Part shown: positions 3,471 through 32,133 of the stretch, in pieces
Layout: every line of letters starts with the position of its first letter
How positions within the stretch are numbered: position 1 is the first letter of the stretch
Virus record (IMG/VR): IMGVR_UViG_3300044796_000245
Location: 1 to 43,391 of that record
Source: a virus
Length of the DNA: 43,391 nt
Reading direction: 5' to 3' (one strand)
Notes under the pieces: model-generated
The model's input: the letters and a program-made list of their open reading frames with translations, nothing else
Told to the model about the DNA's origin: nothing
The model's database searches: none
Program-made: the position numbers and the translations under genes

Positions 3471-5316
3471 CGTGGTCTCGATGTGGGACAACCCCGACGC
3501 CAAGCCGAAGAAACGCGGCAGCGGCGGCGGCGGCGGCGGCCCTCCGGGTGGCGGCGAGGTGCCGGAGCGCCCGGAGTTGTGGGAGAATTGTCCCTTCGCG
3601 CCGGTGGGCAAATCCGGCCGCCTGCTGCATTTTTTCGATAGCTCCGGCGAGCTGGTGCAAATGGCCGCCTCGGCGCTGTCGCAGCACGGCGATTTGCTGC
3701 TGCTGTGCGGCAATCGGTCGCGCTGGCTGCTGGAGAATTTCCCGTCGGTGGACCGCGAGTCCGGCGCGCATTGGTTCAACGCGCGCATGGCGGCGATGGC
3801 GATTATCCAGCGCTGTTGCTCGCTGGAATTGTTCGACCCCAACGAGAAGCGCCACCGCTACGGATTGTGGGTGATCGACGGCGGCTACGCGCTGCACGTG
3901 GGCAAAACCGTGATCTGGCACGGGCCGGAGAAGTCGCGCCAGCGCGACGCCGGGTTCCGCGACGCCGGCGCGCTGTGGCCGCGTCTGCCCGCCAAGCCGC
4001 TGCCCGCCGCCCCCGCCAGTGCCGCCGCCGGGCAGGCGCTGGAGCAGGTGCTGGCAAGCTGGAACTGGGAGACGCCGCACGGGCCGAGCCTGATGCTCGG
4101 CGGCATGGTGGTGGGCATGCTGGGCGCGGTGGCGCCATGGCGCGCCCATCTGTGCGTGGTGGGGTCGTCCGGCTGCGGCAAGTCCACGCTGCTGAGCGTG
4201 CTCGCCGCCGGGCTGTGCCCGATTTCCACCTACAAGAACCACTACACCGAGCCGGGCTTGCGCCAGTTGCTCAGCGAAACCGCCGCCGGGGTGATCCTGG
4301 ACGAAGCCGAATCGGACAGCGGCGGCGAGACCAAATTGCAGCGCGTGATCGAGATGCTGCGCCGGTCTTCGTCCGGTGCCGGCGTGCAAGCGGTGCAAGG
4401 TGGCGACGGGCAGGAAGCGAAATCGTTCACCGTCTCCACCTCGGCCATTCTCGGCTGCATCTGGCCGCCGTCGCTGACCGAACAGGACGCGAGCCGCATC
4501 ACGCTGCTGCAACTGGGCAAGCTGAAACCCGGCGGCGCGCACAACGAACAATCCATCGCGGCGTTCGTCGCCGAGCACGGCCTGGCGCTGTGGGGGCGGG
4601 CGGTGGAGAACGCGGCGCGCGCGGTGGCGCTGTACCGGCTGCTGAAGGCGCGGCTGGTGGAGCATTACGAGTGCTCGCCGCGCATGGCGGATCAGCTCGG
4701 CATCCTCGCCGCGGCGCGCTGGGTGATGATCGCCGATGAATGCGACGATCCGCGCGGCCCGCATGCCGATGACGACATCGATGTGCCGCTGCAATGCGTG
4801 GCCGGGCTGGTGGTGCGCGAGGCGGATCAGCTTGCCGACAGCGGCCCCAATCTGGCGCTGCAACATCTGCTGGCATGGCCGATGGACATGCAGGGCGACA
4901 AGCTCACTATCGGGCAGGGGCTGCGCAAATTGCGCAACGCCGGCGACACCATCCGCAAGCTCGGCGACAGCCCGCTCGACATCATCGACCGCGAAACCCG
5001 CGACAAAGCCATCGCCGAGTGGAACAAGCTGTCGCTGCTGCTGGAAGGCAACGGGGTGAAATGGGGCACCAGTCCGCTGCGCCCCACCGAGGCCGAGCCG
5101 TCGCCGAAGCTGGGCCTGTACGTGACCGTGCAAGCCCACCCGCGATTGTCGCGGGCGTTCGCCGACACGCCGTTCGCGGGCCAGCGCTGGGGGGCCGCGC
5201 TGGCCCGCCTGCCCAACGCGAAAAGCAGCCGCGACGCGGGCACCGTGCGCATGGCGGGCGGCAAACCGCGCTGCTGCTGGGTGCCGTCGGCCACGCTGTC
5301 GGAATTGACGGAATGA
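3460..5316 (+). CDS. P-loop ATPase, likely replication helicase or initiator
   Basis: A 618-residue protein. After a Gly-rich basic leader (residues 1-35), residues about 40-190 form an uncharacterised N-terminal domain. Residues about 233-241 hold a clean Walker A (GSSGCGKS) and residues about 277-285 a Walker B (GVILDEAES). A later stretch with ILGCIWPPSL and EQDASRITLLQL resembles the sensor and arginine-finger region of hexameric helicases. The organisation recalls DUF927-type and superfamily 3-like phage or plasmid helicases; no primase motif is visible. It ends right at a large array of 9-bp repeats, the classic arrangement of a replication protein next to its origin. ATPase activity is near certain; the replication role is inferred. 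Confidence 0.75.
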   Translation: MASNVVSMWDNPDAKPKKRGSGGGGGGPPGGGEVPERPELWENCPFAPVGKSGRLLHFFDSSGELVQMAASALSQHGDLLLLCGNRSRWLLENFPSVDRESGAHWFNARMAAMAIIQRCCSLELFDPNEKRHRYGLWVIDGGYALHVGKTVIWHGPEKSRQRDAGFRDAGALWPRLPAKPLPAAPASAAAGQALEQVLASWNWETPHGPSLMLGGMVVGMLGAVAPWRAHLCVVGSSGCGKSTLLSVLAAGLCPISTYKNHYTEPGLRQLLSETAAGVILDEAESDSGGETKLQRVIEMLRRSSSGAGVQAVQGGDGQEAKSFTVSTSAILGCIWPPSLTEQDASRITLLQLGKLKPGGAHNEQSIAAFVAEHGLALWGRAVENAARAVALYRLLKARLVEHYECSPRMADQLGILAAARWVMIADECDDPRGPHADDDIDVPLQCVAGLVVREADQLADSGPNLALQHLLAWPMDMQGDKLTIGQGLRKLRNAGDTIRKLGDSPLDIIDRETRDKAIAEWNKLSLLLEGNGVKWGTSPLRPTEAEPSPKLGLYVTVQAHPRLSRAFADTPFAGQRWGAALARLPNAKSSRDAGTVRMAGGKPRCCWVPSATLSELTE

Positions 5317-5395
5317 TGTGTCCCATGTGTCCCGCGATGTGTCCCAGCTAACCCCTTGAGATATTAGGGCTGGGACACCGGGACACATGGGACAC
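5316..5395. repeat. 9-bp repeat array, copy 1 (3 forward, 3 reverse)
   Basis: ATGTGTCCC occurs at 5316-5324, 5325-5333 and 5337-5345. Its reverse complement follows at 5372-5378, 5380-5388 and 5389-5395 (GGGACAC cores, one with the full 9 bp). The inner units form a perfect 10-bp stem (5339-5348 with 5369-5378) around a 20-base loop that itself holds CTAA and TTAG. The array starts on the stop codon of the ATPase gene. The design matches iterons of a replication origin or a cooperative operator. Confidence 0.85.
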
Positions 5396-5441
5396 CGCTA
5401 ATATGGGTTGTGACGGGCGTGCGCACGTAGAGGGCATATTC

Positions 5442-5524
5442 ATGTGTCCCATGTGTCCCATGTGTCCCACCCCTATAAAAACAATGGTTTAGGTGGGACA
5501 CATTATGGGACACATGGGACACAT
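5442..5524. repeat. 9-bp repeat array, copy 2 (3 forward, 3 reverse)
   Basis: ATGTGTCCC lies at 5442-5450, 5451-5459 and 5460-5468. GGGACACAT lies at 5495-5503, 5507-5515 and 5516-5524, all six with full 9-bp identity. The inner units form a perfect 12-bp stem (5460-5471 with 5492-5503) around a 20-base AT-richer loop. The centre between repeat blocks is 26 bp (5469-5494), the same as in copy 1 (5346-5371). The last two units lie inside the NusG-like coding region and encode its GH repeats. Confidence 0.88.
5460..5503 (+). promoter_or_regulatory. RNA hairpin that would hide the ribosome site of the NusG-like gene
   Basis: In the transcript, 5460-5471 pairs perfectly with 5492-5503. The second arm contains the likely ribosome site AGGTGGG (5491-5497), and the start codon ATG follows at 5505. 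Folding would block initiation. This allows control by a binding protein, by translation of the upstream region or by antitermination complexes. The pairing is seen in the sequence; the regulatory effect is inferred. Confidence 0.5.
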
Positions 5525-6221
5525 CGCCGCCAGCCCCGCCGAAGCCGCGAATCGGGTTGACATCGGCGAAAGCGGCGTGCCATCGATCGGCCTCGGCGCT
5601 CCCGGTGCTCGGCACCCGGAGTGCGGGAGCCATCCCGAAAATGGCCACCTAATCAAGTCGGCAACGAACGGCCACGGCGGCTGCCGGGCCAATGCCGGGC
5701 GCAAGCCCAGGCCACATCCCAAGCCGCTCGGCGTTCGCTGGTATGTGGTGCAAGTGGCGCCGCGCCAGGAATTCCGGGTTCGCGACGAACTCGGCAAACT
5801 CGGCCTCACCACGTGGCTGGCGCTGCTGATCGCGCGCAACAGCGAGCGGATCGAGGCGGCGTTCCCTGGCTACGTGTTCGTGCGGTTCGATGTCGACGCC
5901 GATCGCTGGCGGCCGATCTGCAGCACCGCCGGCGTCACCCGCCTGTTCTCCGCCTCGCCGGAACATCCGCTGCCGCTGCCCGTCGGCGCCGTCGAGGCGC
6001 TGCAGGCGCGGGGGCGGGCGGGCGACGGGGTGATCGATGAGCGGGCGCGCCCGTTCGGCCTCGTGGGCGAGGCGCTGCGCGTCGCCAGCGGCCCGTTCGC
6101 CGATTTCGAGGGGTTGTGCACCTGGGCGGCGGGCGACCGCGTGCGGGTGCTTCTGTCGGTCTTCGGACGGCAGACGGAAATCTCGCTGCCGCGCCACGCG
6201 GTGAAGGAAGCCAATTCGTGA
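5505..6221 (+). CDS. NusG/RfaH-family transcription elongation factor
   Basis: ATG 5505, with AGGTGGG eight bases upstream, gives 238 residues; GTG 5493 and an internal GTG near 5577 are other options. Residues about 76-165 match an NGN domain (VRWYVVQVAPRQEF, then AAFPGYVFVRFD). Residues about 185-234 match a KOW domain (VASGPFADFEG, then RVRVLLSVFGR). A roughly 75-residue low-complexity N-terminal extension is unusual; its first residues come from the 9-bp repeats. NusG paralogues such as RfaH and LoaP bind paused RNA polymerase and suppress termination. Here the gene closes the early block, shortly upstream of an intrinsic terminator (6952-7000) that guards the late genes. A late-gene antitermination role is therefore a good inference. 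The 5599-5621 hairpin lies inside the extension. Confidence 0.85.
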   Translation: MGHMGHIAASPAEAANRVDIGESGVPSIGLGAPGARHPECGSHPENGHLIKSATNGHGGCRANAGRKPRPHPKPLGVRWYVVQVAPRQEFRVRDELGKLGLTTWLALLIARNSERIEAAFPGYVFVRFDVDADRWRPICSTAGVTRLFSASPEHPLPLPVGAVEALQARGRAGDGVIDERARPFGLVGEALRVASGPFADFEGLCTWAAGDRVRVLLSVFGRQTEISLPRHAVKEANS

Positions 6222-7000: not shown

Positions 7001-7050
7001 GTGTAATCTTGTCAACGCGTTGTGTTGTTGTTGGTGTTGCTTTCCGACCC

Positions 7051-7623
7051 ATGGCCGCCCCTGTCAACAAGGCTGCGCTGGCTCACTGGCTCGGCGTTTC
7101 GTTGCCGACGCTGGGGCGGTGGATGCTGCGCTACGGGCCGGAGTTTCCGGTGTTGCAAACCGGCACCAACGGCCGCGACTACCAGTTCGACGCCGCCGCC
7201 GTGGCGGACTTCCTGCGCACCAAACAGGCCGAGCAAACCGCTGCCAAATCCGCCGCCGACGAACAGCTCGCGCAACTTCGCCTGCCGTTCGACCTGCCGG
7301 GCGCCGAGCCGCCGCCGAAAGCCTCCAGCACCAAAGACGAAATCGAAGCCTGGAAGCTGCGCAAGATGCAACGCGAGGAAGCCGAAGCCGCCAAGAAACT
7401 GGTGCCGGCCGAGGCGATGCGCTCCGCCATCTCCAGCGTGCTCGGCCGCATCTCGCGCGACTCCCACGCCTTCCTGCGCCAGATCGCCCGCGAGCATAAC
7501 TGGCCGCCGGCGATGACGGCGAGCCTGGAGAAGCGTCTGGCCGACCAGCAGCGCGCCACCGTCGCCGCCCTGCGCGCGCAGCTCGGCGGCGAACATGGTG
7601 CGGACCATGCCGCCGCTGGATAA
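7051..7623 (+). CDS. Terminase small subunit (Nu1-like)
   Basis: ATG 7051 gives 190 residues; an in-frame TTG at 7009 would add 14. Residues 5-52 form a Nu1-type winged helix-turn-helix (KAALAHWLGVSLPTLGRW, then YQFDAAAVADFL) that binds the packaging site. A charged helical region near residues 90-125 (EIEAWKLRKMQREEAEAAKK) would mediate oligomerisation, and the C-terminus contacts the large subunit. The gene overlaps the large subunit by 29 bp. In lambda-type phages the packaging site lies just upstream of or within this gene, so 6938-7100 is the place to look for cos. Confidence 0.85.
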   Translation: MAAPVNKAALAHWLGVSLPTLGRWMLRYGPEFPVLQTGTNGRDYQFDAAAVADFLRTKQAEQTAAKSAADEQLAQLRLPFDLPGAEPPPKASSTKDEIEAWKLRKMQREEAEAAKKLVPAEAMRSAISSVLGRISRDSHAFLRQIAREHNWPPAMTASLEKRLADQQRATVAALRAQLGGEHGADHAAAG

Positions 7624-9703
7624 CCCGGCGCCGTTCGCCGACCCGCTGGCCCTGCTGGCCGCGGCGCTCGATGCCTACCTGCCGCCGAACGCCGTCACCG
7701 TCGCCGACCACGCCGCCGCCCACCGCTGGCTCGACAATCGCGGCGGCGGCTATGTCGGCCGCTGGAGCCACGACGAAGCGCCCTATCTGCGCGAACCGAT
7801 GCTGGCCCTCACCAGCCGCGCCCACACCACGGTGGCGGTGGCCGGCCCCGGCCGCTCCGGCAAGACCGCGATCGCCGAGAACTGGCTGCTGCAATCGGCG
7901 GACGCGGACCCGGCCGACATGCTGTGGTACGAACCCACCGATGACGCGCTGGAAAGCTACGTCAAGCGCGTCATCAATCCGATGATCGAACTGCACGAGC
8001 CGCTGCACCGCCGCCTGGGCACCATGCCGGTCGATCGCTCGTTGCACTTCAAGCGCTTCGGCCCGATGTGGGCGGAATTCCTGGCCGCCACCTATCAGAA
8101 CCTGGTCGGCAAATCGGCCGGGCGCATCGTGGTCGACGAATACGACGCCTGTTCGGAGCGCGACGGCGACGCCTACGACCTCGCCGACATCCGCCGCCAG
8201 AGTTTCGGCCCGGAATCGATGATCCTGGCCCTGTCGCACCCCGACCGGGCCGAGGGCACCGACCCCCGCGCATGGACGCGCGGCATCATGCGCCTGTATG
8301 CCGACAGCGACCGCCGCACCTGGTGGTGGCCCTGCCCGCACTGCAACGGGTTCTCCAGCCCGAACCCCACGGCGGCCCGCTTCATGCCGCTGCACTACCC
8401 CGAGGCCGCGCCGCTGGATGAGGTGGCCGAGGCGGCCCGGCTGATCTGCCCGCTCTGCGCCTCGCCGATCGAGGACAAGTGGCGGCGGGCGATGAACCTG
8501 GAAGGCCGCTGGGTGGGCCTGGGCCAAACCATCGGTGAGGACGGCGAGATCTCCGGCGCGCTGCTGCCGCGTTCCACCGCTGGCTTCTGGATTGTCGGCG
8601 TGATGTCGCCGTTCATCCTGGGCGGCATCGGCGCGCTGGCCCGCGCGCTGGTGGGCGCGGAGAAACAGGCCGAGGCCGAGGGCAGCGACAAGCCGGTGCG
8701 CGATGTGATGGCGAAACGCTGGGGCATCCCGCCCGCGCCGCGCCGCAACATCGGCAGCATCGACGCGGCCACGCTGGCCGAGCGCGCCGAGGATACCCCG
8801 CTCGGCCTGGTGCCGCGCGGCGTGCGCTTCCTCACGGCGTTTCTCGACGTGCAGGCCAACCGCTTCGAATTGCTGGTGCGCGGCTGGGGCGAGCACGGCG
8901 AAAGCTGGGTGGTGGATTTCCGCCGCATCGAGGCCGAGACCGCCACCAGCCCGGCCGATTGGGACGCCGCGATTCGCGCGGCGCTCGATGCCGAGTATCC
9001 GCTCGATGACGCCACCGGCCGCGTGATGCGGGTGCGCGGCGTGGGTTACGACTCCGGCGGCGCGCCGGGCGTCACCGAGCAAGCCTACGCCGTCTGGAAG
9101 CGCCTGCGCGCCGCCGGGCGGGCCCGCCGCCTGGGCGTGGTAGGCGGGCGCGACGTGTGGACGCTGCTGCCCACCAAGGGCAGCAGCACGCCCAACGCGC
9201 CGCGCTTGCAGGTGAACTACCCGGACACCGCCCGCAAGGACCGCAAGACCGCGCTGCGCGGCGAAGTGCCGCTCGGCGCGTTCAATGCCAACCAGTTCAA
9301 GGACAGTCTGGCGGGCCAACTGGCCACCGGCCTGCCCGGCAAGGGCTTCGTGCATTTGCCCGCCGCGTTGCGCAGCCCGCAGCCGCCGCACGCCTGGTTC
9401 GAGCAACTCACGGCCGAGCGCCGCCGCCCGAACGGGGCCTGGGAAAAAATCGGCCGCGCCAACGAGGCGCTCGACCTCATGATCGGAACGCATGTGATCG
9501 CCCATCTGCACGGCCTGTCGCGCATCAACTGGAACGCCCCGCCGGCCTGGGCGGCGGCGTGGGATGTGTCCAGCTCAGTGGCCAAGCCCACCACGCCCGC
9601 CGGCACGCTGGTAAAGCTGGTGCAGGCGCTGACGCCGCCCGCCGCCGTGCGCCCAGCCAAATTCAACCCGGCGGCCCAGCGTATGGGCCGCAGGCTCGCC
9701 TGA
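7595..9703 (+). CDS. Terminase large subunit (lambda gpA family)
   Basis: A 702-residue packaging motor, usual for the gpA family (about 640-700). The Walker A is at residues 84-91 (GPGRSGKT) and the Walker B at 177-183 (RIVVDEYDA region). Two CxxC pairs (CPHC and CPLC, residues about 247-290) recall the zinc-like insertion of gpA. The nuclease domain starts near the LTAFLDVQANRFELLVRGWG stretch, whose Asp is a likely metal ligand. The protein translocates DNA into proheads and cuts cos. An alternative ATG at 7607 would shorten it by four residues. Confidence 0.95.
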   Translation: MVRTMPPLDNPAPFADPLALLAAALDAYLPPNAVTVADHAAAHRWLDNRGGGYVGRWSHDEAPYLREPMLALTSRAHTTVAVAGPGRSGKTAIAENWLLQSADADPADMLWYEPTDDALESYVKRVINPMIELHEPLHRRLGTMPVDRSLHFKRFGPMWAEFLAATYQNLVGKSAGRIVVDEYDACSERDGDAYDLADIRRQSFGPESMILALSHPDRAEGTDPRAWTRGIMRLYADSDRRTWWWPCPHCNGFSSPNPTAARFMPLHYPEAAPLDEVAEAARLICPLCASPIEDKWRRAMNLEGRWVGLGQTIGEDGEISGALLPRSTAGFWIVGVMSPFILGGIGALARALVGAEKQAEAEGSDKPVRDVMAKRWGIPPAPRRNIGSIDAATLAERAEDTPLGLVPRGVRFLTAFLDVQANRFELLVRGWGEHGESWVVDFRRIEAETATSPADWDAAIRAALDAEYPLDDATGRVMRVRGVGYDSGGAPGVTEQAYAVWKRLRAAGRARRLGVVGGRDVWTLLPTKGSSTPNAPRLQVNYPDTARKDRKTALRGEVPLGAFNANQFKDSLAGQLATGLPGKGFVHLPAALRSPQPPHAWFEQLTAERRRPNGAWEKIGRANEALDLMIGTHVIAHLHGLSRINWNAPPAWAAAWDVSSSVAKPTTPAGTLVKLVQALTPPAAVRPAKFNPAAQRMGRRLA

Positions 9704-15417: not shown

Positions 15418-15770
15418 TCGATTTCGACGATGTCATCGCGGCCGGCATGGGCGCGTTCGGCGAATTCGTCACCTGGACGCCCGCCGGCGGGGCCGCGCAA
15501 ACGGTTCCGGCCGTGTTCTGGGACAACGCCACCGAGACGAATTTCGAGGATGGCGTGGAAGTGGTGGAAACCGTGCCGCTGCTGTCGCTGCGCCTGTCGC
15601 AAATGACCGGCGTGCCGAAGCAGGCCGACGCGTTCACCGTGCGCGGCGTGGCCTACGTGGCCACCCAGGTGCTGCCCGACGGCGTCGGCGGCTGCCGGGT
15701 GCGGATGCGCTACGCCAACGATGCGCAGGCCGGCGTGGCCCCGCTGCCGCCCGTTCCCGTCGCCAGCTAG
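15414..15770 (+). CDS. Head-tail connector, gpFII-like
   Basis: GTG 15414 (GTGA overlap) gives 118 residues, near lambda gpFII (117). The start (FDDVIAAGMGAFGEFVTW) and the beta-strand pattern through FTVRGVAYVATQVLPDG match the head-tail attachment family that includes gpFII. It would cap the portal-gpW complex and receive the tail. Position in the order E, small protein, FII supports the call. Confidence 0.75.
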   Translation: MIDFDDVIAAGMGAFGEFVTWTPAGGAAQTVPAVFWDNATETNFEDGVEVVETVPLLSLRLSQMTGVPKQADAFTVRGVAYVATQVLPDGVGGCRVRMRYANDAQAGVAPLPPVPVAS

Positions 15771-15781
15771 GAATTTCCGCA

Positions 15782-18550
15782 ATGGCTGGCCCGTTCTACG
15801 ATCTGGTGCAGGAAACCACGCTCACGCAAGGCACCGGCCCGGTGCTGTGCACCGGCACCGCGCTGCCGGGGTTCGTGAATTGGTCTTCGGTGCCCAGCGG
15901 CAGCAGCGCCTATTATTACATCCGCTCCGGCGACGGCTATAGCTGGGAACTTGGCTTGGCACCGGTGACGGTGTCGGGCGGCAGCGCCAGCATCCCGCGC
16001 ACCGGCATCATCGCCAGCAGCAACGGCGGCGCGGCGATCGTGCTCACCGGCACCAGCACCATCCGCAGCGACGTGCCGGCGGCGTTCCTGAACGCGCTGC
16101 CCACCAGCGTGGCGGGCCGTGGCGGCGCGGTGGCGCTGGCCACCGGCGACATCGCGGGCCTCACCACCGCCTGTCTGGCCGCGCGGCCGGCGCCGTGGGC
16201 GGTGTGGAAGCCGTGGGGCAACGGACTGTCGATCAGCGCCAGCGGCTACGGCAGCACCTATGCCAAAGCCTCGCATACCTACATCTGGACGGCGGAATTC
16301 GAGGCGCTGCCGCTCGGCATTCAATTCGCCTTCGCCAATTCCACCGCATCGTGGACATGGACGGTGCAGCAGGGCGTGGTGGCCCCCAGCAGCCAGTATG
16401 GCGCGGGCGTCACCCCGGGCGTGACGCCGTACGATGAAAGCGGCGCGGCGGTGACGGCGCTGCAGCCGGTCACGTTCAACAACGCGGGCGCGGGCAGCAA
16501 CCCCTATCCCGGCATCGGCGCGTTCGCGGGCGGCAACCAGGGGCCGCTGGTGGTTTCGGTGATCGCGGCCACCACGGCCTCCGGCCAGGCGGTGCTGGCG
16601 CTGTCCAACGCGCAGGAACCGGACACCGAGGGCAGCCTGGGCAAGCGGCTGCTGCAAACCGGCATGTATGCCAGCGACAATCTGGGCAACATCACGCCTG
16701 GCACCAAAATCCAGAGCATTTCCGGCAATAACATCACCCTCACGGGCAATATCGCCGGAAACATCACCGCCGGACAGGTGATTTTCTTCGCCTGGGAACA
16801 GTTGACGCTGTCGGCCACGGTGCCCGCCTGCACCAACGCGCCGGAACATCAACTGATCTGGTCGGATTTCGTGCCGTTCCAGGGCTTCCGCCGGATCGAT
16901 GGGCCGATCCTGCCCGGCATGGCCGCCAGCGGCGCGAACGTGCCCGCCGGGGCCACCGTGCTGAGCGTGACGGCCAACAGCGTCACGCTGTCGGCCACGC
17001 CCTCGGCGCAGGTGGCGAGCCAAACCGCCGTCACGTTCGGTCAGGCCACCTTCGCCACGGCGGCGCTGGCCAGCGGCTATGTGCTCGCGGTGGCCAGCAC
17101 CGCCAATCTGCAGCAGGGGCAGGCCGTCAGCGGCCCGAACATCGCCGCCGGGGCCATCGTGTGGGAGGTGCTGGCCGCCAGCGGCAGCGTGCGCCTGAGC
17201 AAGCCCAGCAGCGCCGCCGTGGGCGACCTGATCACCTTCAGCGTCACCGCCACCACCAACGCGGGCAGCACCGGGGCGGTGCTGCCGTTCCCGTCCACCA
17301 CCGGCAAATTCCTGGTGACGGCGCGATTCAACGTGTCCGGCGGCACCAACATCAACGCGTGGGTGCCCGGCTATAACTGGGTCACCTCGGAGGCCGCGCT
17401 GGGTCTGCCGCTGTGGCAGTCCTACCAGGGCGGCAACGGCAACGACGGCGTCAATTTCCCCAGCACGCTCAGCAATTCCGCCGGCGGCGTGTCGCAGAAT
17501 TACGTGTGCCCGGTCTACGGCGCGCGGGTGCTGACGGCCTCGCGCGGCTGGGTGATCATGGAAGGCGGCGACAGCCATATCTGCGGCGACACCACCGGCA
17601 GCCTGAACGCCAATTTCGTCCGCCTCGCCGCCGCGCAGCTCAGCACGCCGCAGCGGCCTGTCAGCGTGTGGAACGCCGCCACCGGCGGCACGCTGCCCAG
17701 CACCTTCCTGCCGCAACTGTGGAACCCGGCGCAGGTGGTCAAACCCGCCGTGACGGTGCTGCAGGGCTACACCCACAACACCAACGACCAGCCGGACGGG
17801 CTGTATCTGTCGCAGGCGATGGCGGTGGCCGATGGCGTGTGGCGCGGCTGGCTGGGCAATTTCATCATCGTCGACGAATTGCCGCGCCAGTCGGCCGAGG
17901 TGGGGCTGGTGCAGACCGCCGCCGCCACCGTCAACAGCGCCAGTGTCACGCTGGCCGATTATCCGCAGGCGCTGTGGCTGAACGGCACCAATTCCTACCC
18001 GGTGCAATCGGTCAACAACGCCTCGGTGCCGCCGGGCACCACCGCCATCGGCAACTGGGGCAGCAATGCGCTGGCGCTGGGCGTGCCGCTCAGCATCCCC
18101 GCAGGCACCATCCTGGCGCTGGGGCGGCTGCTGGTGGCGTCCAGCACCACCAACAGCACCTCGGTCACCCTCACCGACGCGGCGGCGATCAGCGGCACTT
18201 ACAACGTGTCGGGCACCGGCATCGTCGCCGGCGACACCATCGCCATCACCGCCAACAGCACCGCCGCCACGCTCAGCAACGCGCGCTCGCTGGTGGGCGG
18301 CAGCTATCTGCAAATCGGCAACAGCGACAGCATGCTGACGGGCAGCGAGGCCGCCACCGGCATCTACAACCAGGGCTCCGGCTACAGTTCGGCGGTGCTG
18401 AAGGCGATGGACCTGCTGGCCGACGCCACCGGCACCTTCCTGCCCGCCAACAGCACCGACGGCATCCACGCCAACGATGTCGGCCACGCCGTGCTGGCGG
18501 CGGCCCTGATGCCGCTGCTGACCGGCATGGGCGTCGGCGCTGCGGCATGA
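15782..18550 (+). CDS. SGNH/GDSL esterase with fibre-type N-terminus and repeated beta modules
   Basis: AGGA nine bases before ATG 15782; 922 residues. Residues 1-105 (FYDLVQETTLTQGTGPV, then IPRTGIIASSNGGAAIV) match a domain common at the start of phage tail-fibre proteins. The GDS block is at residues 596-598 (Ser598 nucleophile) and the C-terminal Asp893-x-x-His896 (DGIH) completes the catalytic set; the esterase domain seems to span about 565-915 with an inserted beta stretch. Four or five beta modules with an SG-x-x-I-AG(T/A) pattern occur near residues 268-337, 374-419, 422-490, 718-780 and 786-846. Likely role: a virion-bound deacetylase or esterase acting on surface polysaccharide. 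Its place between connector and tail genes is unusual. Confidence 0.75.
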   Translation: MAGPFYDLVQETTLTQGTGPVLCTGTALPGFVNWSSVPSGSSAYYYIRSGDGYSWELGLAPVTVSGGSASIPRTGIIASSNGGAAIVLTGTSTIRSDVPAAFLNALPTSVAGRGGAVALATGDIAGLTTACLAARPAPWAVWKPWGNGLSISASGYGSTYAKASHTYIWTAEFEALPLGIQFAFANSTASWTWTVQQGVVAPSSQYGAGVTPGVTPYDESGAAVTALQPVTFNNAGAGSNPYPGIGAFAGGNQGPLVVSVIAATTASGQAVLALSNAQEPDTEGSLGKRLLQTGMYASDNLGNITPGTKIQSISGNNITLTGNIAGNITAGQVIFFAWEQLTLSATVPACTNAPEHQLIWSDFVPFQGFRRIDGPILPGMAASGANVPAGATVLSVTANSVTLSATPSAQVASQTAVTFGQATFATAALASGYVLAVASTANLQQGQAVSGPNIAAGAIVWEVLAASGSVRLSKPSSAAVGDLITFSVTATTNAGSTGAVLPFPSTTGKFLVTARFNVSGGTNINAWVPGYNWVTSEAALGLPLWQSYQGGNGNDGVNFPSTLSNSAGGVSQNYVCPVYGARVLTASRGWVIMEGGDSHICGDTTGSLNANFVRLAAAQLSTPQRPVSVWNAATGGTLPSTFLPQLWNPAQVVKPAVTVLQGYTHNTNDQPDGLYLSQAMAVADGVWRGWLGNFIIVDELPRQSAEVGLVQTAAATVNSASVTLADYPQALWLNGTNSYPVQSVNNASVPPGTTAIGNWGSNALALGVPLSIPAGTILALGRLLVASSTTNSTSVTLTDAAAISGTYNVSGTGIVAGDTIAITANSTAATLSNARSLVGGSYLQIGNSDSMLTGSEAATGIYNQGSGYSSAVLKAMDLLADATGTFLPANSTDGIHANDVGHAVLAAALMPLLTGMGVGAAA

Positions 18551-29043: not shown

Positions 29044-32000
29044 ATGACGGATATCTCGCAGCTCGCGCCGGAGGGCGCCGCCACCGGCCCCGAGCTGATC
29101 CCGGCGCTGCTGCCGAACGGATCGGGCGGCTATACGCCCGTCAGCCTCACCGCCGCGCAGATCGCGGCGCTGGCGGGCGGCGGCGGGCTGACCAAGCAAG
29201 CCATCGACGCCACCGGCGGCCCGCATACCATCACCGCCGGCGAGGCCGCGCACGCGGTGCTGGACATTTCCATCGCCAGCAACGTCACCGTCACATGCCC
29301 GGCCAGCGGCGCATGGCTGGTGAACGCCATTTCCACCACGGGCCCGATCTTGGGCAGCGACACGCTGAACCCGTCCGACATGGCGGCGACGCTGGCGCTG
29401 TCGGGCGGCAATCTGACGGTGACGAACAGCGGCACCGCCAGTTCCGCCTGGGCGACGGTGCGGGCGGCGAACCCGATCATGCCGGGCGAGGTGGTGAAGA
29501 TCGAATTTACCCCCGGCACCATCAGCGGCAACGGTTTCGTGGTCGGCGCCATGCCCGCCGCCACCACGCTGGCGGACTATCCGGGGCAAAGCGGCAGCAA
29601 CGGGTTCGGCATCGTGCAAGGCGCGCCGGTGGCGTTCCTCAACAACGGCACCGTCACCAACGTCGGCACCCTGTCGCTGTCGGCCGCCACCACGTACGCG
29701 ATCATCATCGACGATGTGCACCATAAAGCCTGGGGGCAAACCGCCGCCGGGTATTTCGGCCCCTCGGGCGTGGACACCGTGGGCACCGCCGAGAACCCCA
29801 ACACCAACACCGGCGGTTTCACCATCCCCGCCATCGGCTCGCTGGGCATCCTGCCCGCCGTGTCGCTGTATTACGCGGGCGAGGCCGCCACGCTGAATTT
29901 CGGCGCGGGCAGCTTCTCGCTCGCCACCCCGACCACCATCACCACCGGCGGCTCGCCCTACACGCTCACGTTCAGCAACGGCAGCGGCTCGGTGGCGATC
30001 GCGGGCAACACCAGCGAGTGGGTGGAGGCCAGCGGCACGCTGGGCGTGTCCACCACCGTGGTGGGCAGCGGCGGCGGGGCGGGCACCGTCACCCTTACCG
30101 GCGACATCACCGGCAGCGGCACCGCCAGCATCGCCACCACCCTGGCCGCCAGCGGCGTGACGGCGGGCACCTATTCCAAAATCACGGTCGACGCCAAGGG
30201 CCGCGCCACGAATGGCAGCGCGATCGGCGGCAGCGACGTGACGGCCGCGCTGGGCTTCACGCCCTACAACAACACCAACCCGTCAGGCTTCATCAGCGGC
30301 AACCAGACCATCACGCTCGGCGGCGACCTGTCGGGCAGCGGCGCGACCTCGATCAGCGGCACCGTCGGCAGCATCGGCGGCAAAGCGGTGTCGCTCGGCG
30401 GCTCGGTCACGTTCTCCGGCGCGTTCGCCACCACCATCACCGTCACCGGCGCCACCACCGTCACGCTGCCCACCAGCGGCACGCTGGCCACCACCGCCAA
30501 CATCAACAGCGCGGTGCCGAGCGCCACCTCCAGCCAGATCTACGTCGGCACCGGCAGCGCCGGGGCCGCCGCCGCAGCGAGCGCCATCCCGAACGGTATC
30601 ACCGCCACCACCCAGGCCGCCGGATCGAACGACACCAAAGTCGCCACCGACGCCTACGTGTATACCGCCACCTCGGCGATCACGTCCGTCGTCACCACCG
30701 GCGGCACCACCACGCTGTCGGCGGCGCAGTATGGCCAGCCGATCATCAACATCACCGGCACGCTGGCCAGCAACGCCATCATCACGGCGCCCACCCAGGG
30801 CGAATGGACGGTGCTGAACAACACGTCGGGCGCGTTCACCGTGACCGTGAACAGCGGCGCGGGCACCTCGGTGGCCGTCACCCAGGGCAAAAGCGCGCTG
30901 GTCACCGCCAACGGCACCAACGTGGTGCAATCGATCACCGACATCTCGCCGGTGATCGATCTGCTCGGCAACGCGCAGGGCGATCTGCTGTATCGCAACG
31001 CATCCGGCTGGGTGGTGCTGGCCCCCGGCACATCGGGCCAGTTGCTCCAGACCAACGGCGCTGCGGCCAATCCAGGCTGGGCCAGCGTGCCGAACGGGTT
31101 CCTGGGGTCTGGCGTCGATGGCGCGATTTCGCTGTCCTCGCCGGTCACGCAGACCCGCGACTATCAGGCGACCAATCTGACCCTGAACAGCGGGGGCACG
31201 CTCTATACCGCCGGTTACGCTGTCTATTGCACGGGCACGCTCGATCTATCGTCCGCCCAAGCGGGCGCGATCACGTTCTCGGCAGGCACGGCGGCGGGCA
31301 ATGGCACGGCGTCGGCGGGTGGCACTGCCGGTGTCTGCGCGACCGTTTACGGGCGCTATATGTCAGGCCGCACTGGCGGTGTGGGCGGCACGCCGTCCAC
31401 CACCACGGGTGGCGCGGGCACCAGCCCAGGCGCGGCCACCGGGTCCTACACCTTCAACGCAGCGCCCGCCGCGCCGTCTGGCGGCGCTGGGACGAGTGCC
31501 GCCGGGGCTGGCGGCGGCTCGCTGGCCGTTGGGTATTCGACGAACCTGTCGTCGGGCTGGCCTGCGCCGGATAGCCCCGACGTCGTGGGCTTGTCGGGCT
31601 CTGCGCTGGGGTATTTCGGCGGCGGCACGTATGGCTCCGGAGGCGGCGCTGGCGGCGGCGACAGCACGAACAAAGGCGGCGGCGGCGGTGGCGGCGGCTA
31701 CGGCGGCGGCAAATGCCGGATGCGCGCCTACGCGCTGAATCGCGGCGCTTCCACGGCGGCCGGCGCGATCAATTTCGCGGGCAGCAAGGGCGGCAACGGC
31801 TTCACCCCCACCGTTGGCAACTGCGGCGGCGGCGGCGGCGGCAACGGCGGCGGCGGCGGGTATTTCGATCTGGCGGTGTTCGCGCTGCTCGGTTCGGCAG
31901 TGACCAACCTGATCGATGTCAGCGGCGGCGCAGGGGGCACCGCTGGCAGCGGCATCGGCACCGGCGTCGCGGGCACCGGCGGCACGGGCGGCCCCAGCGG

Positions 32001-32133
32001 CTATGCGGCGGTGATCCAGATGGGCGTGACGGGCTGGACGGCCGGCACCCAATTCGTCGCCGCCAACACGGCCGGTTCCGTTGGCAGCGGCACCTCGGGC
32101 GGCGCTGGCGCAACCGCCAAACTCACGGTGTAA
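29044..32133 (+). CDS. Main tail fibre with polyglycine-rich C-terminal domain
   Basis: A 1029-residue fibre. Residues 1-45 are likely the attachment region. Residues about 350-400 hold a fibre repeat of the GDITGSGTASIATTL and AGTYSKITVDAKGRAT type, and about 640-690 hold DLLGNAQGDLLYRNASGWVV, also a standard fibre segment. From residue about 760 the chain is Gly/Ser-rich, with runs of eight and six glycines near 31680 and 31830. This resembles the polyglycine-II sandwich of T-even gp38-type adhesins, where exposed loops bind the receptor. No self-cleaving chaperone is visible. The following gene may assist folding. Confidence 0.82.
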   Translation: MTDISQLAPEGAATGPELIPALLPNGSGGYTPVSLTAAQIAALAGGGGLTKQAIDATGGPHTITAGEAAHAVLDISIASNVTVTCPASGAWLVNAISTTGPILGSDTLNPSDMAATLALSGGNLTVTNSGTASSAWATVRAANPIMPGEVVKIEFTPGTISGNGFVVGAMPAATTLADYPGQSGSNGFGIVQGAPVAFLNNGTVTNVGTLSLSAATTYAIIIDDVHHKAWGQTAAGYFGPSGVDTVGTAENPNTNTGGFTIPAIGSLGILPAVSLYYAGEAATLNFGAGSFSLATPTTITTGGSPYTLTFSNGSGSVAIAGNTSEWVEASGTLGVSTTVVGSGGGAGTVTLTGDITGSGTASIATTLAASGVTAGTYSKITVDAKGRATNGSAIGGSDVTAALGFTPYNNTNPSGFISGNQTITLGGDLSGSGATSISGTVGSIGGKAVSLGGSVTFSGAFATTITVTGATTVTLPTSGTLATTANINSAVPSATSSQIYVGTGSAGAAAAASAIPNGITATTQAAGSNDTKVATDAYVYTATSAITSVVTTGGTTTLSAAQYGQPIINITGTLASNAIITAPTQGEWTVLNNTSGAFTVTVNSGAGTSVAVTQGKSALVTANGTNVVQSITDISPVIDLLGNAQGDLLYRNASGWVVLAPGTSGQLLQTNGAAANPGWASVPNGFLGSGVDGAISLSSPVTQTRDYQATNLTLNSGGTLYTAGYAVYCTGTLDLSSAQAGAITFSAGTAAGNGTASAGGTAGVCATVYGRYMSGRTGGVGGTPSTTTGGAGTSPGAATGSYTFNAAPAAPSGGAGTSAAGAGGGSLAVGYSTNLSSGWPAPDSPDVVGLSGSALGYFGGGTYGSGGGAGGGDSTNKGGGGGGGGYGGGKCRMRAYALNRGASTAAGAINFAGSKGGNGFTPTVGNCGGGGGGNGGGGGYFDLAVFALLGSAVTNLIDVSGGAGGTAGSGIGTGVAGTGGTGGPSGYAAVIQMGVTGWTAGTQFVAANTAGSVGSGTSGGAGATAKLTV

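Follow-up and report, generated by a model that had tools for sequence, protein, structure and literature searches.

The window analysed here is the full 43,391-nt viral contig IMGVR_UViG_3300044796_000245 (positions 1-43,391), in which a dense array of short repeats directly follows a gene for an AAA+ replication helicase (Table 1). In addition to its best family match, the helicase matches phrog_35358 (DNA primase, helicase part; E=2.4e-23) and, over the Walker motifs, the DUF5906/D5 helicases (E=1.6e-6, prob 90) and more weakly the DUF927 helicases (E=2.7e-5, prob 74). Its AlphaFold model has a pLDDT of 37, which is too poor for a structure search, and a profile search of the PDB returned no helicase match. 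Past the array, the gene order is NusG-like, a minor-tail-like frame, terminase small subunit (TerS), terminase large subunit (TerL) and portal. The NusG-like frame opens inside the array, and the true start of the gene is probably downstream of it, at the in-frame GTG at 5577 or later; starts from this position onwards place the array outside the gene. Rfam, tRNA and tmRNA searches gave no match.

Table 1. Features of the window array and its neighbouring genes, with the NusG-like frames found at arrays
Feature	Position	Strand	Remarks
AAA+ replication helicase, D5/SF3-like, 618 aa	3460..5316	+	phrog_21086, E=1.5e-88; proposed initiator
Iteron triplet 1	5316..5345	+	ATGTGTCCC at 5316, 5325, 5337; unit 1 overlaps the helicase TGA stop
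Inner spacer, block 1, 26 bp	5346..5371	.	AGCTAACCCCTTGAGATATTAGGGCT
Iteron triplet 2	5372..5395	-	GGGACAC at 5372, 5380, 5389
46-bp centre between the blocks, near the whole-array dyad	5396..5441	.	
Alternating purine-pyrimidine run	5417..5429	.	GCGTGCGCACGTA; longest strictly alternating run of the 43-kb contig
Iteron triplet 3	5442..5468	+	ATGTGTCCC at 5442, 5451, 5460
Inner spacer, block 2, 26 bp	5469..5494	.	ACCCCTATAAAAACAATGGTTTAGGT; most AT-rich part of the array
Iteron triplet 4	5495..5524	-	GGGACACAT at 5495, 5507, 5516
NusG-like open frame, first gene after the array	5493..6221	+	PF02357, residues 82-169, E=5.8e-14
TerS, 1.5 kb from the array	7009..7623	+	phrog_57, phrog_141, E about 2.5e-9
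TerL, lambda gpA type, start of the late genes	7595..9703	+	PF05876, E=3e-59
NusG-like frames at arrays	window 5493-6221; L596 4946-5575		also L359, L290, L371, L354, L298, L349

The array comprises 12 GTGTCCC/GGGACAC units, six on each strand, within 209 bp (5316-5524), in the order +++ (26 bp) --- (46 bp) +++ (26 bp) ---. Ten units are exact copies of ATGTGTCCC, of which the one at 5380 is the only exact copy in triplet 2, and two units on the minus strand (5372-5378 and 5389-5395) retain the GTGTCCC core alone; the TGTCCC/GGGACA hexamers start at 5319/5328/5340, 5372/5380/5389, 5445/5454/5463 and 5495/5507/5516. An earlier note on this DNA had described 12 units in about 210 bp, arranged as two 3+3 inverted blocks with centres alike in geometry and unlike in sequence, and both descriptions proved correct: the two inner spacers are exactly 26 bp long and differ in sequence, and carry CTAA..TTAG and CTA..TAG near their ends. 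The two blocks are inverted copies of one another (arms 5315-5378 and 5462-5525, 64 nt, 81% complementary), so that the array as a whole is dyad-symmetric about a point near 5420. Read from outside, triplets 1 and 4 both show a spacing of 9 and then 12. The best hexamer count per 210 bp is 12 in the full contig, compared with 6-8 in 20 Markov simulations, and the repeat cluster is thus real and not a product of chance. The contig holds eight single TGTCCC hexamers elsewhere, and the tandem 16-mer of the array has no second occurrence in it. No other hexamer cluster reaches 12 copies except for a run of GGC at 31.6 kb, which is coding: GGC codon repeats occupy positions 31618-31700 of a long late gene (29044-32133). 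The earlier note had also singled out the array for its AT content, which is true of the spacer 5469-5494 (~65% AT by hand count) but not of the 46-bp centre, whose GC content of ~57% is lower than that of the contig (~69%) and yet not AT-rich.

Among deposited sequences, the helicase of the window has its best homologue in the Synechococcus phage MinM1. The two helicases are only 27% identical and the MinM1 repeats are TGTGAG/CTCACA instead of TGTCCC, whereas the gene order helicase-array-NusG-TerL, the 12 units in four mirrored triplets and the presence of an alternating tract near the centre are the same as in the window. TGTGAG occurs exactly 12 times in the 42,756 bp of the MinM1 genome, with all copies within 220 bp (15695-15914 of ON981384, a record that carries no origin annotation there). 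In CTCACA orientation the triplets read -++ / --- / centre / +++ / ---, with one unit of triplet 1 inverted, and the start-to-start triplet gaps are 31/67/42, compared with 32/56/32 in the window. Similarly, the helicase of the Marinobacter phage PS3 is 48% identical to that of the Pseudomonas phage U5; the U5 array is built from TGTCC, while that of PS3 is based on GGTCACCCC. These sequence comparisons support the conclusion that the layout was conserved in MinM1 and PS3 while the iterons were exchanged, and the MinM1 layout also lends weight to the proposal of the earlier note that the architecture is under selection and not a recent copy. Arrays of further iterons occupy the corresponding place in two Firmicutes phages, the Paenibacillus phage TonyLawson77 (CTGCAACA x9) and the Staphylococcus phage phiST9-A (GATGCAAC), in both cases 3' of a VapE-type gene. 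Of the related metagenomic contigs, L512 and L513 have GGTGTCCC/GGGGACA units in arrays that lie downstream of the helicase, and L598 has GGTTCT. The earlier note had suggested looking for the layout next to homologous genes in related phages: in MinM1, an array accompanies both the helicase and the NusG-like gene, and among the distant helicase homologues only the Acinetobacter phage Acjo_20 has no array 3' of its helicase gene.

The alternating run in the centre of the window array may be an unwinding element or a Z-prone one. The strictly alternating run in or at the array is the longest in the sequence examined for the window, U5 and the contigs L512, L335 and L598, and ties for longest in MinM1; the Pseudomonas phage Haddon and PS3 likewise have their longest run there within the locus stretches that were compared. 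Runs of at least 14 were present in 12% of the arrays and 1.7% of the control stretches, and runs of at least 20 in 8% of the arrays and 0 of 720 control stretches; most arrays are without a long alternating run, and the median is 8 in arrays and controls alike. As this pattern was spotted post hoc, it serves more as a lead than as a test. That the longest alternating run of a sequence often falls within the array appears to be a new observation.

One might ask if the array acts without any protein, as a hairpin, as bidirectional terminator DNA or as a chance expansion of repeats. The array follows a stop codon and its strand folds far better than shuffled sequences (z = -12), as such a reading would have it, but folding of this kind follows from the inverted repeats themselves. 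A search of 5100-5800 for an intrinsic terminator, that is a GC-rich hairpin followed by a T run, found none, which counts against a terminator. In addition, both strands retain the hexamer, and MinM1 keeps the triplets with another hexamer. We therefore regard a protein-independent element as highly improbable.

When deposited phages were searched by nucleotide sequence, neither the array nor the region from the helicase to the NusG-like gene had a convincing relative; one plasmid gave a match, which was short and partial. A first protein scan of viral contigs gave no relatives; a three-sequence profile then gave two. Array loci were collected by tandem-TGTCCC pattern scans of viral contigs and bacterial genomes, which gave many dense two-strand arrays; genes were called as simple open frames and relatedness was reduced by shared k-mers alone, leaving 148 dereplicated loci with dense TGTCCC arrays, window included, among the matches listed. 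In 66 of these 148 listed loci, the 3' end of a replication primase/helicase gene faces the array at a median gap of 22 bp (within 70 bp in 49 of the 66), and representatives of these helicases belong to several families, namely AAA_25, VapE, DUF5906/D5 and DUF927. No helicase with its 3' end at the array was assigned in the other 82 listed loci, among them the window, where the gene caller mis-assigned it. The TGTCCC tandem pairs form a single cluster in each of 16 whole viral contigs, compared with 0/16 for a reversed-pattern control. Tandem triplets were found in four of the six bacterial genomes searched, on one contig each except for one genome with two. Among the papers searched, we found none naming a TGTCCC origin array.

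Arrays were also seen in other surroundings. The marine phages L036, L045, L091 and L101 and about 30 similar contigs have GGTGTCCCT units in a 5+1 array, flanked by a small unknown gene and a TerS-like gene, with ParB-like and DNA polymerase genes near and no helicase seen at the array. The TGTCCC arrays of L308, L332, L357, L377, L381, L383 and L390 lie between genes of unknown function, which are often divergent; in L390, the neighbouring protein matches a family of transcriptional regulators and, less strongly, the abortive-infection family BstA. In L148, which comes from an Acidobacteria bin, a GGGACAC/TGTCCCTT array (5987-6126) is located between two convergent genes, one of them coding for an M20 peptidase, and no replication gene was seen beside it.

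The anatomy of the window array resembles that of origins of mobile elements. SaPI origins are located directly downstream of the helicase gene and their iterons are read by the helicase C-terminus (PMC7581432), while in PICI origins an AT-rich region is always flanked by two sets of iterons, and a PICI rep-ori replicates once cloned (PMC6092414). For both the SaPI Rep and the SCCmec Cch2 proteins, it is the C-terminal domain that binds the iterons (PMC7581432). In the window, the array likewise lies directly 3' of the putative initiator helicase gene, whose stop codon overlaps the first unit, and has six units in each block on either side of its 46-bp centre; the AT-rich part lies in the spacer of block 2 and not in this centre. 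Since the SaPI, PICI and SCCmec literature describes such an anatomy as a helicase-read origin (PMC7581432, PMC6092414), we propose that the window array is probably the replication origin of this phage, of the SaPI/PICI type and read by the helicase. The earlier note had offered two options, and that of origin iterons read by the adjacent ATPase is the better supported one, given the recurrence behind the replication helicases of many unrelated phages, the MinM1 and PS3 arrays and the match to SaPI/PICI origins. The AAA+ helicase would bind the iterons, and the two mirror-image sets, each +++/---, would assemble two opposed helicase rings flanking the dyad at ~5420; the mirrored sets suggest that these rings are loaded head to head astride it. 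The alternating tract in the centre and/or the AT-rich 26-bp spacer might then open, and two forks would depart in opposite directions.

Several observations speak against an origin. The array centre is not AT-rich, the helicase has a poor model and no PDB helicase match, more than half of the listed loci are without an assigned helicase, and TGTCC is found beside different helicase families, which is unlike a simple reading in which each helicase has its own iteron. Cumulative GC skew, which had been put forward as a check, peaks at 5-7 kb in the window, close to the array, and is lowest near 36 kb; in MinM1 it peaks at the array. An inflection at the array is present in both, with the flanking genes on one strand, but by the convention for bacteria its sign is terminus-like, and no consistent pattern emerged from 16 other genomes; we therefore consider GC skew uninformative as a test for origins.

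A further observation against an origin is that TerL lies ~1-5 kb downstream of the array in all seven contigs in which it was located, so that a packaging site is compatible with the position alone. A cos or pac site at which TerS binds the repeats and marks the start of packaging, as it does with the R sites of lambda cosB, is the main rival to an origin. In the window, TerL is 2.1 kb from the array, and the TerS-like gene of the marine group often starts ~90 bp from its array. On the other hand, the gap between array and helicase is steady at ~20 bp, whereas that between array and terminase is variable, and the PS3 array stays with the helicase, with TerL ~7 kb off, past the endolysin and other genes. 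The ends of the phage Haddon record lie between TerS and the minor tail gene, ~1.5 kb from the array, though they are perhaps not physical ends. A lambda-type cosB or pac site would lie next to or within the TerS gene, but in the window the two are 1.5 kb apart and separated by two open frames. Taken together, we consider a packaging site unlikely.

The second option of the earlier note, an operator or antitermination site, is equivalent to a late-operon control region at the early/late junction, which would act as a cooperative operator or in the loading of the NusG-like protein on RNA polymerase. The array is indeed located at the early/late boundary, and the NusG-like genes are strikingly close: seven of the eight NusG-like frames in 1.38 Mb of listed array loci are within ~320 bp of an array, and the order helicase-array-NusG was found wherever it was checked, MinM1 likewise. 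A NusG-like gene right behind the array was seen in seven array loci and MinM1. Most array loci are, however, without a NusG-like gene, the symmetry of the array on both strands is not needed for a signal at the RNA level, and no terminator-like or sigma-70-like site was found near the array. To our knowledge, RfaH/NusG loading sites are single elements and not 12-fold. The origin is the better supported option, and a role in late control seems to us rather improbable.

As the loci had been selected by motif, three checks were made on the specificity of TGTCCC for the origin-like arrays. Among the matches listed, arrays of at least six copies were obtained in 99 of 114 cases with TGTCCC and in 32 of 120 with the reversed-motif control, and many of these 32 control arrays are similar in layout, with CCCTGT units. 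The finding that the reversed motif also yields arrays indicates that the layout is general and that TGTCCC is a favoured and not the sole iteron. The viral contigs L484, L506, L420, L450, L454 and L399 from the control scan have mirrored CCCTGT arrays (for example CCCTGTTAA), some of which surround an alternating purine-pyrimidine centre. TGTCCC as a single universal phage signal is ruled out by the CCCTGT arrays. In the second check, 48 VapE loci were fetched by protein, many of them from inter-related genomes, and the commonest 3' hexamers were TGTCC-like in most. Lastly, in 190 alphaproteobacterial genomes, arrays of at least six copies accompany 7 of 28 AAA_25 genes, three of them with GGGACA (one of these being the seed genome), compared with 2 of 29 portal genes and none with GGGACA. 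The VapE and AAA_25 samples suggest that TGTCC is favoured across unrelated helicases. An archaeo-eukaryotic primase was rejected as the common reader, as the primases beside arrays differ in type according to family matches and sequence comparison.

The recurrence of TGTCC-type iterons beside non-homologous helicases appears to be new and raises the question of a common reader. One might speculate, with considerable doubt, that tailed phages share a general origin module in which a TGTCC iteron was taken up behind unrelated helicases (AAA_25, VapE, D5/DUF5906, DUF927) and mirrored around a Z-prone alternating tract. If so, a common TGTCC reader would be expected, either a shared DNA-binding domain that has moved from helicase to helicase or a partner that is conserved, and the layout rather than the sequence would be the conserved signal. 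The present data place a SaPI/PICI-like anatomy in many full-size phages, whose probable origins can be predicted from sequence as mirrored iterons directly behind a helicase gene. Pairs in which the layout was kept and the iteron swapped (window and MinM1, U5 and PS3) make the co-evolution of helicase and iteron directly testable.

Iteron origins in which repeats are bound by a replication initiator are well known from theta plasmids and from lambdoid phages with their O protein. These differ from the window array in that their repeats are mostly direct and, in lambda, lie inside the O gene; the reader of the lambdoid iterons is a non-helicase initiator that recruits DnaB. Closer to the window is the SCCmec Cch2 protein, a D5-type helicase whose C-terminal domain binds short repeats lying immediately 3' of the operon that encodes it, but there are only three 5-nt direct iterons (AAGTG) and mirrored triplets are not described (PMC7581432). 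SaPI/PICI origins share with the window several short iterons directly 3' of an initiator helicase gene, two sets astride a centre, helicases of the DUF927 and D5 families and the proposed binding as two hexamers. A satellite of this kind would be a small element with no head or TerL genes of its own, whereas the window encodes TerL, portal and head protease and is a full-size tailed phage; our proposal is therefore limited to the type of origin and does not imply PICI membership. The window differs further in its TGTCCC iteron, in the 3+3 inverted-repeat structure of each set, and in a centre that holds an alternating purine-pyrimidine tract where SaPI/PICI origins are AT-rich.
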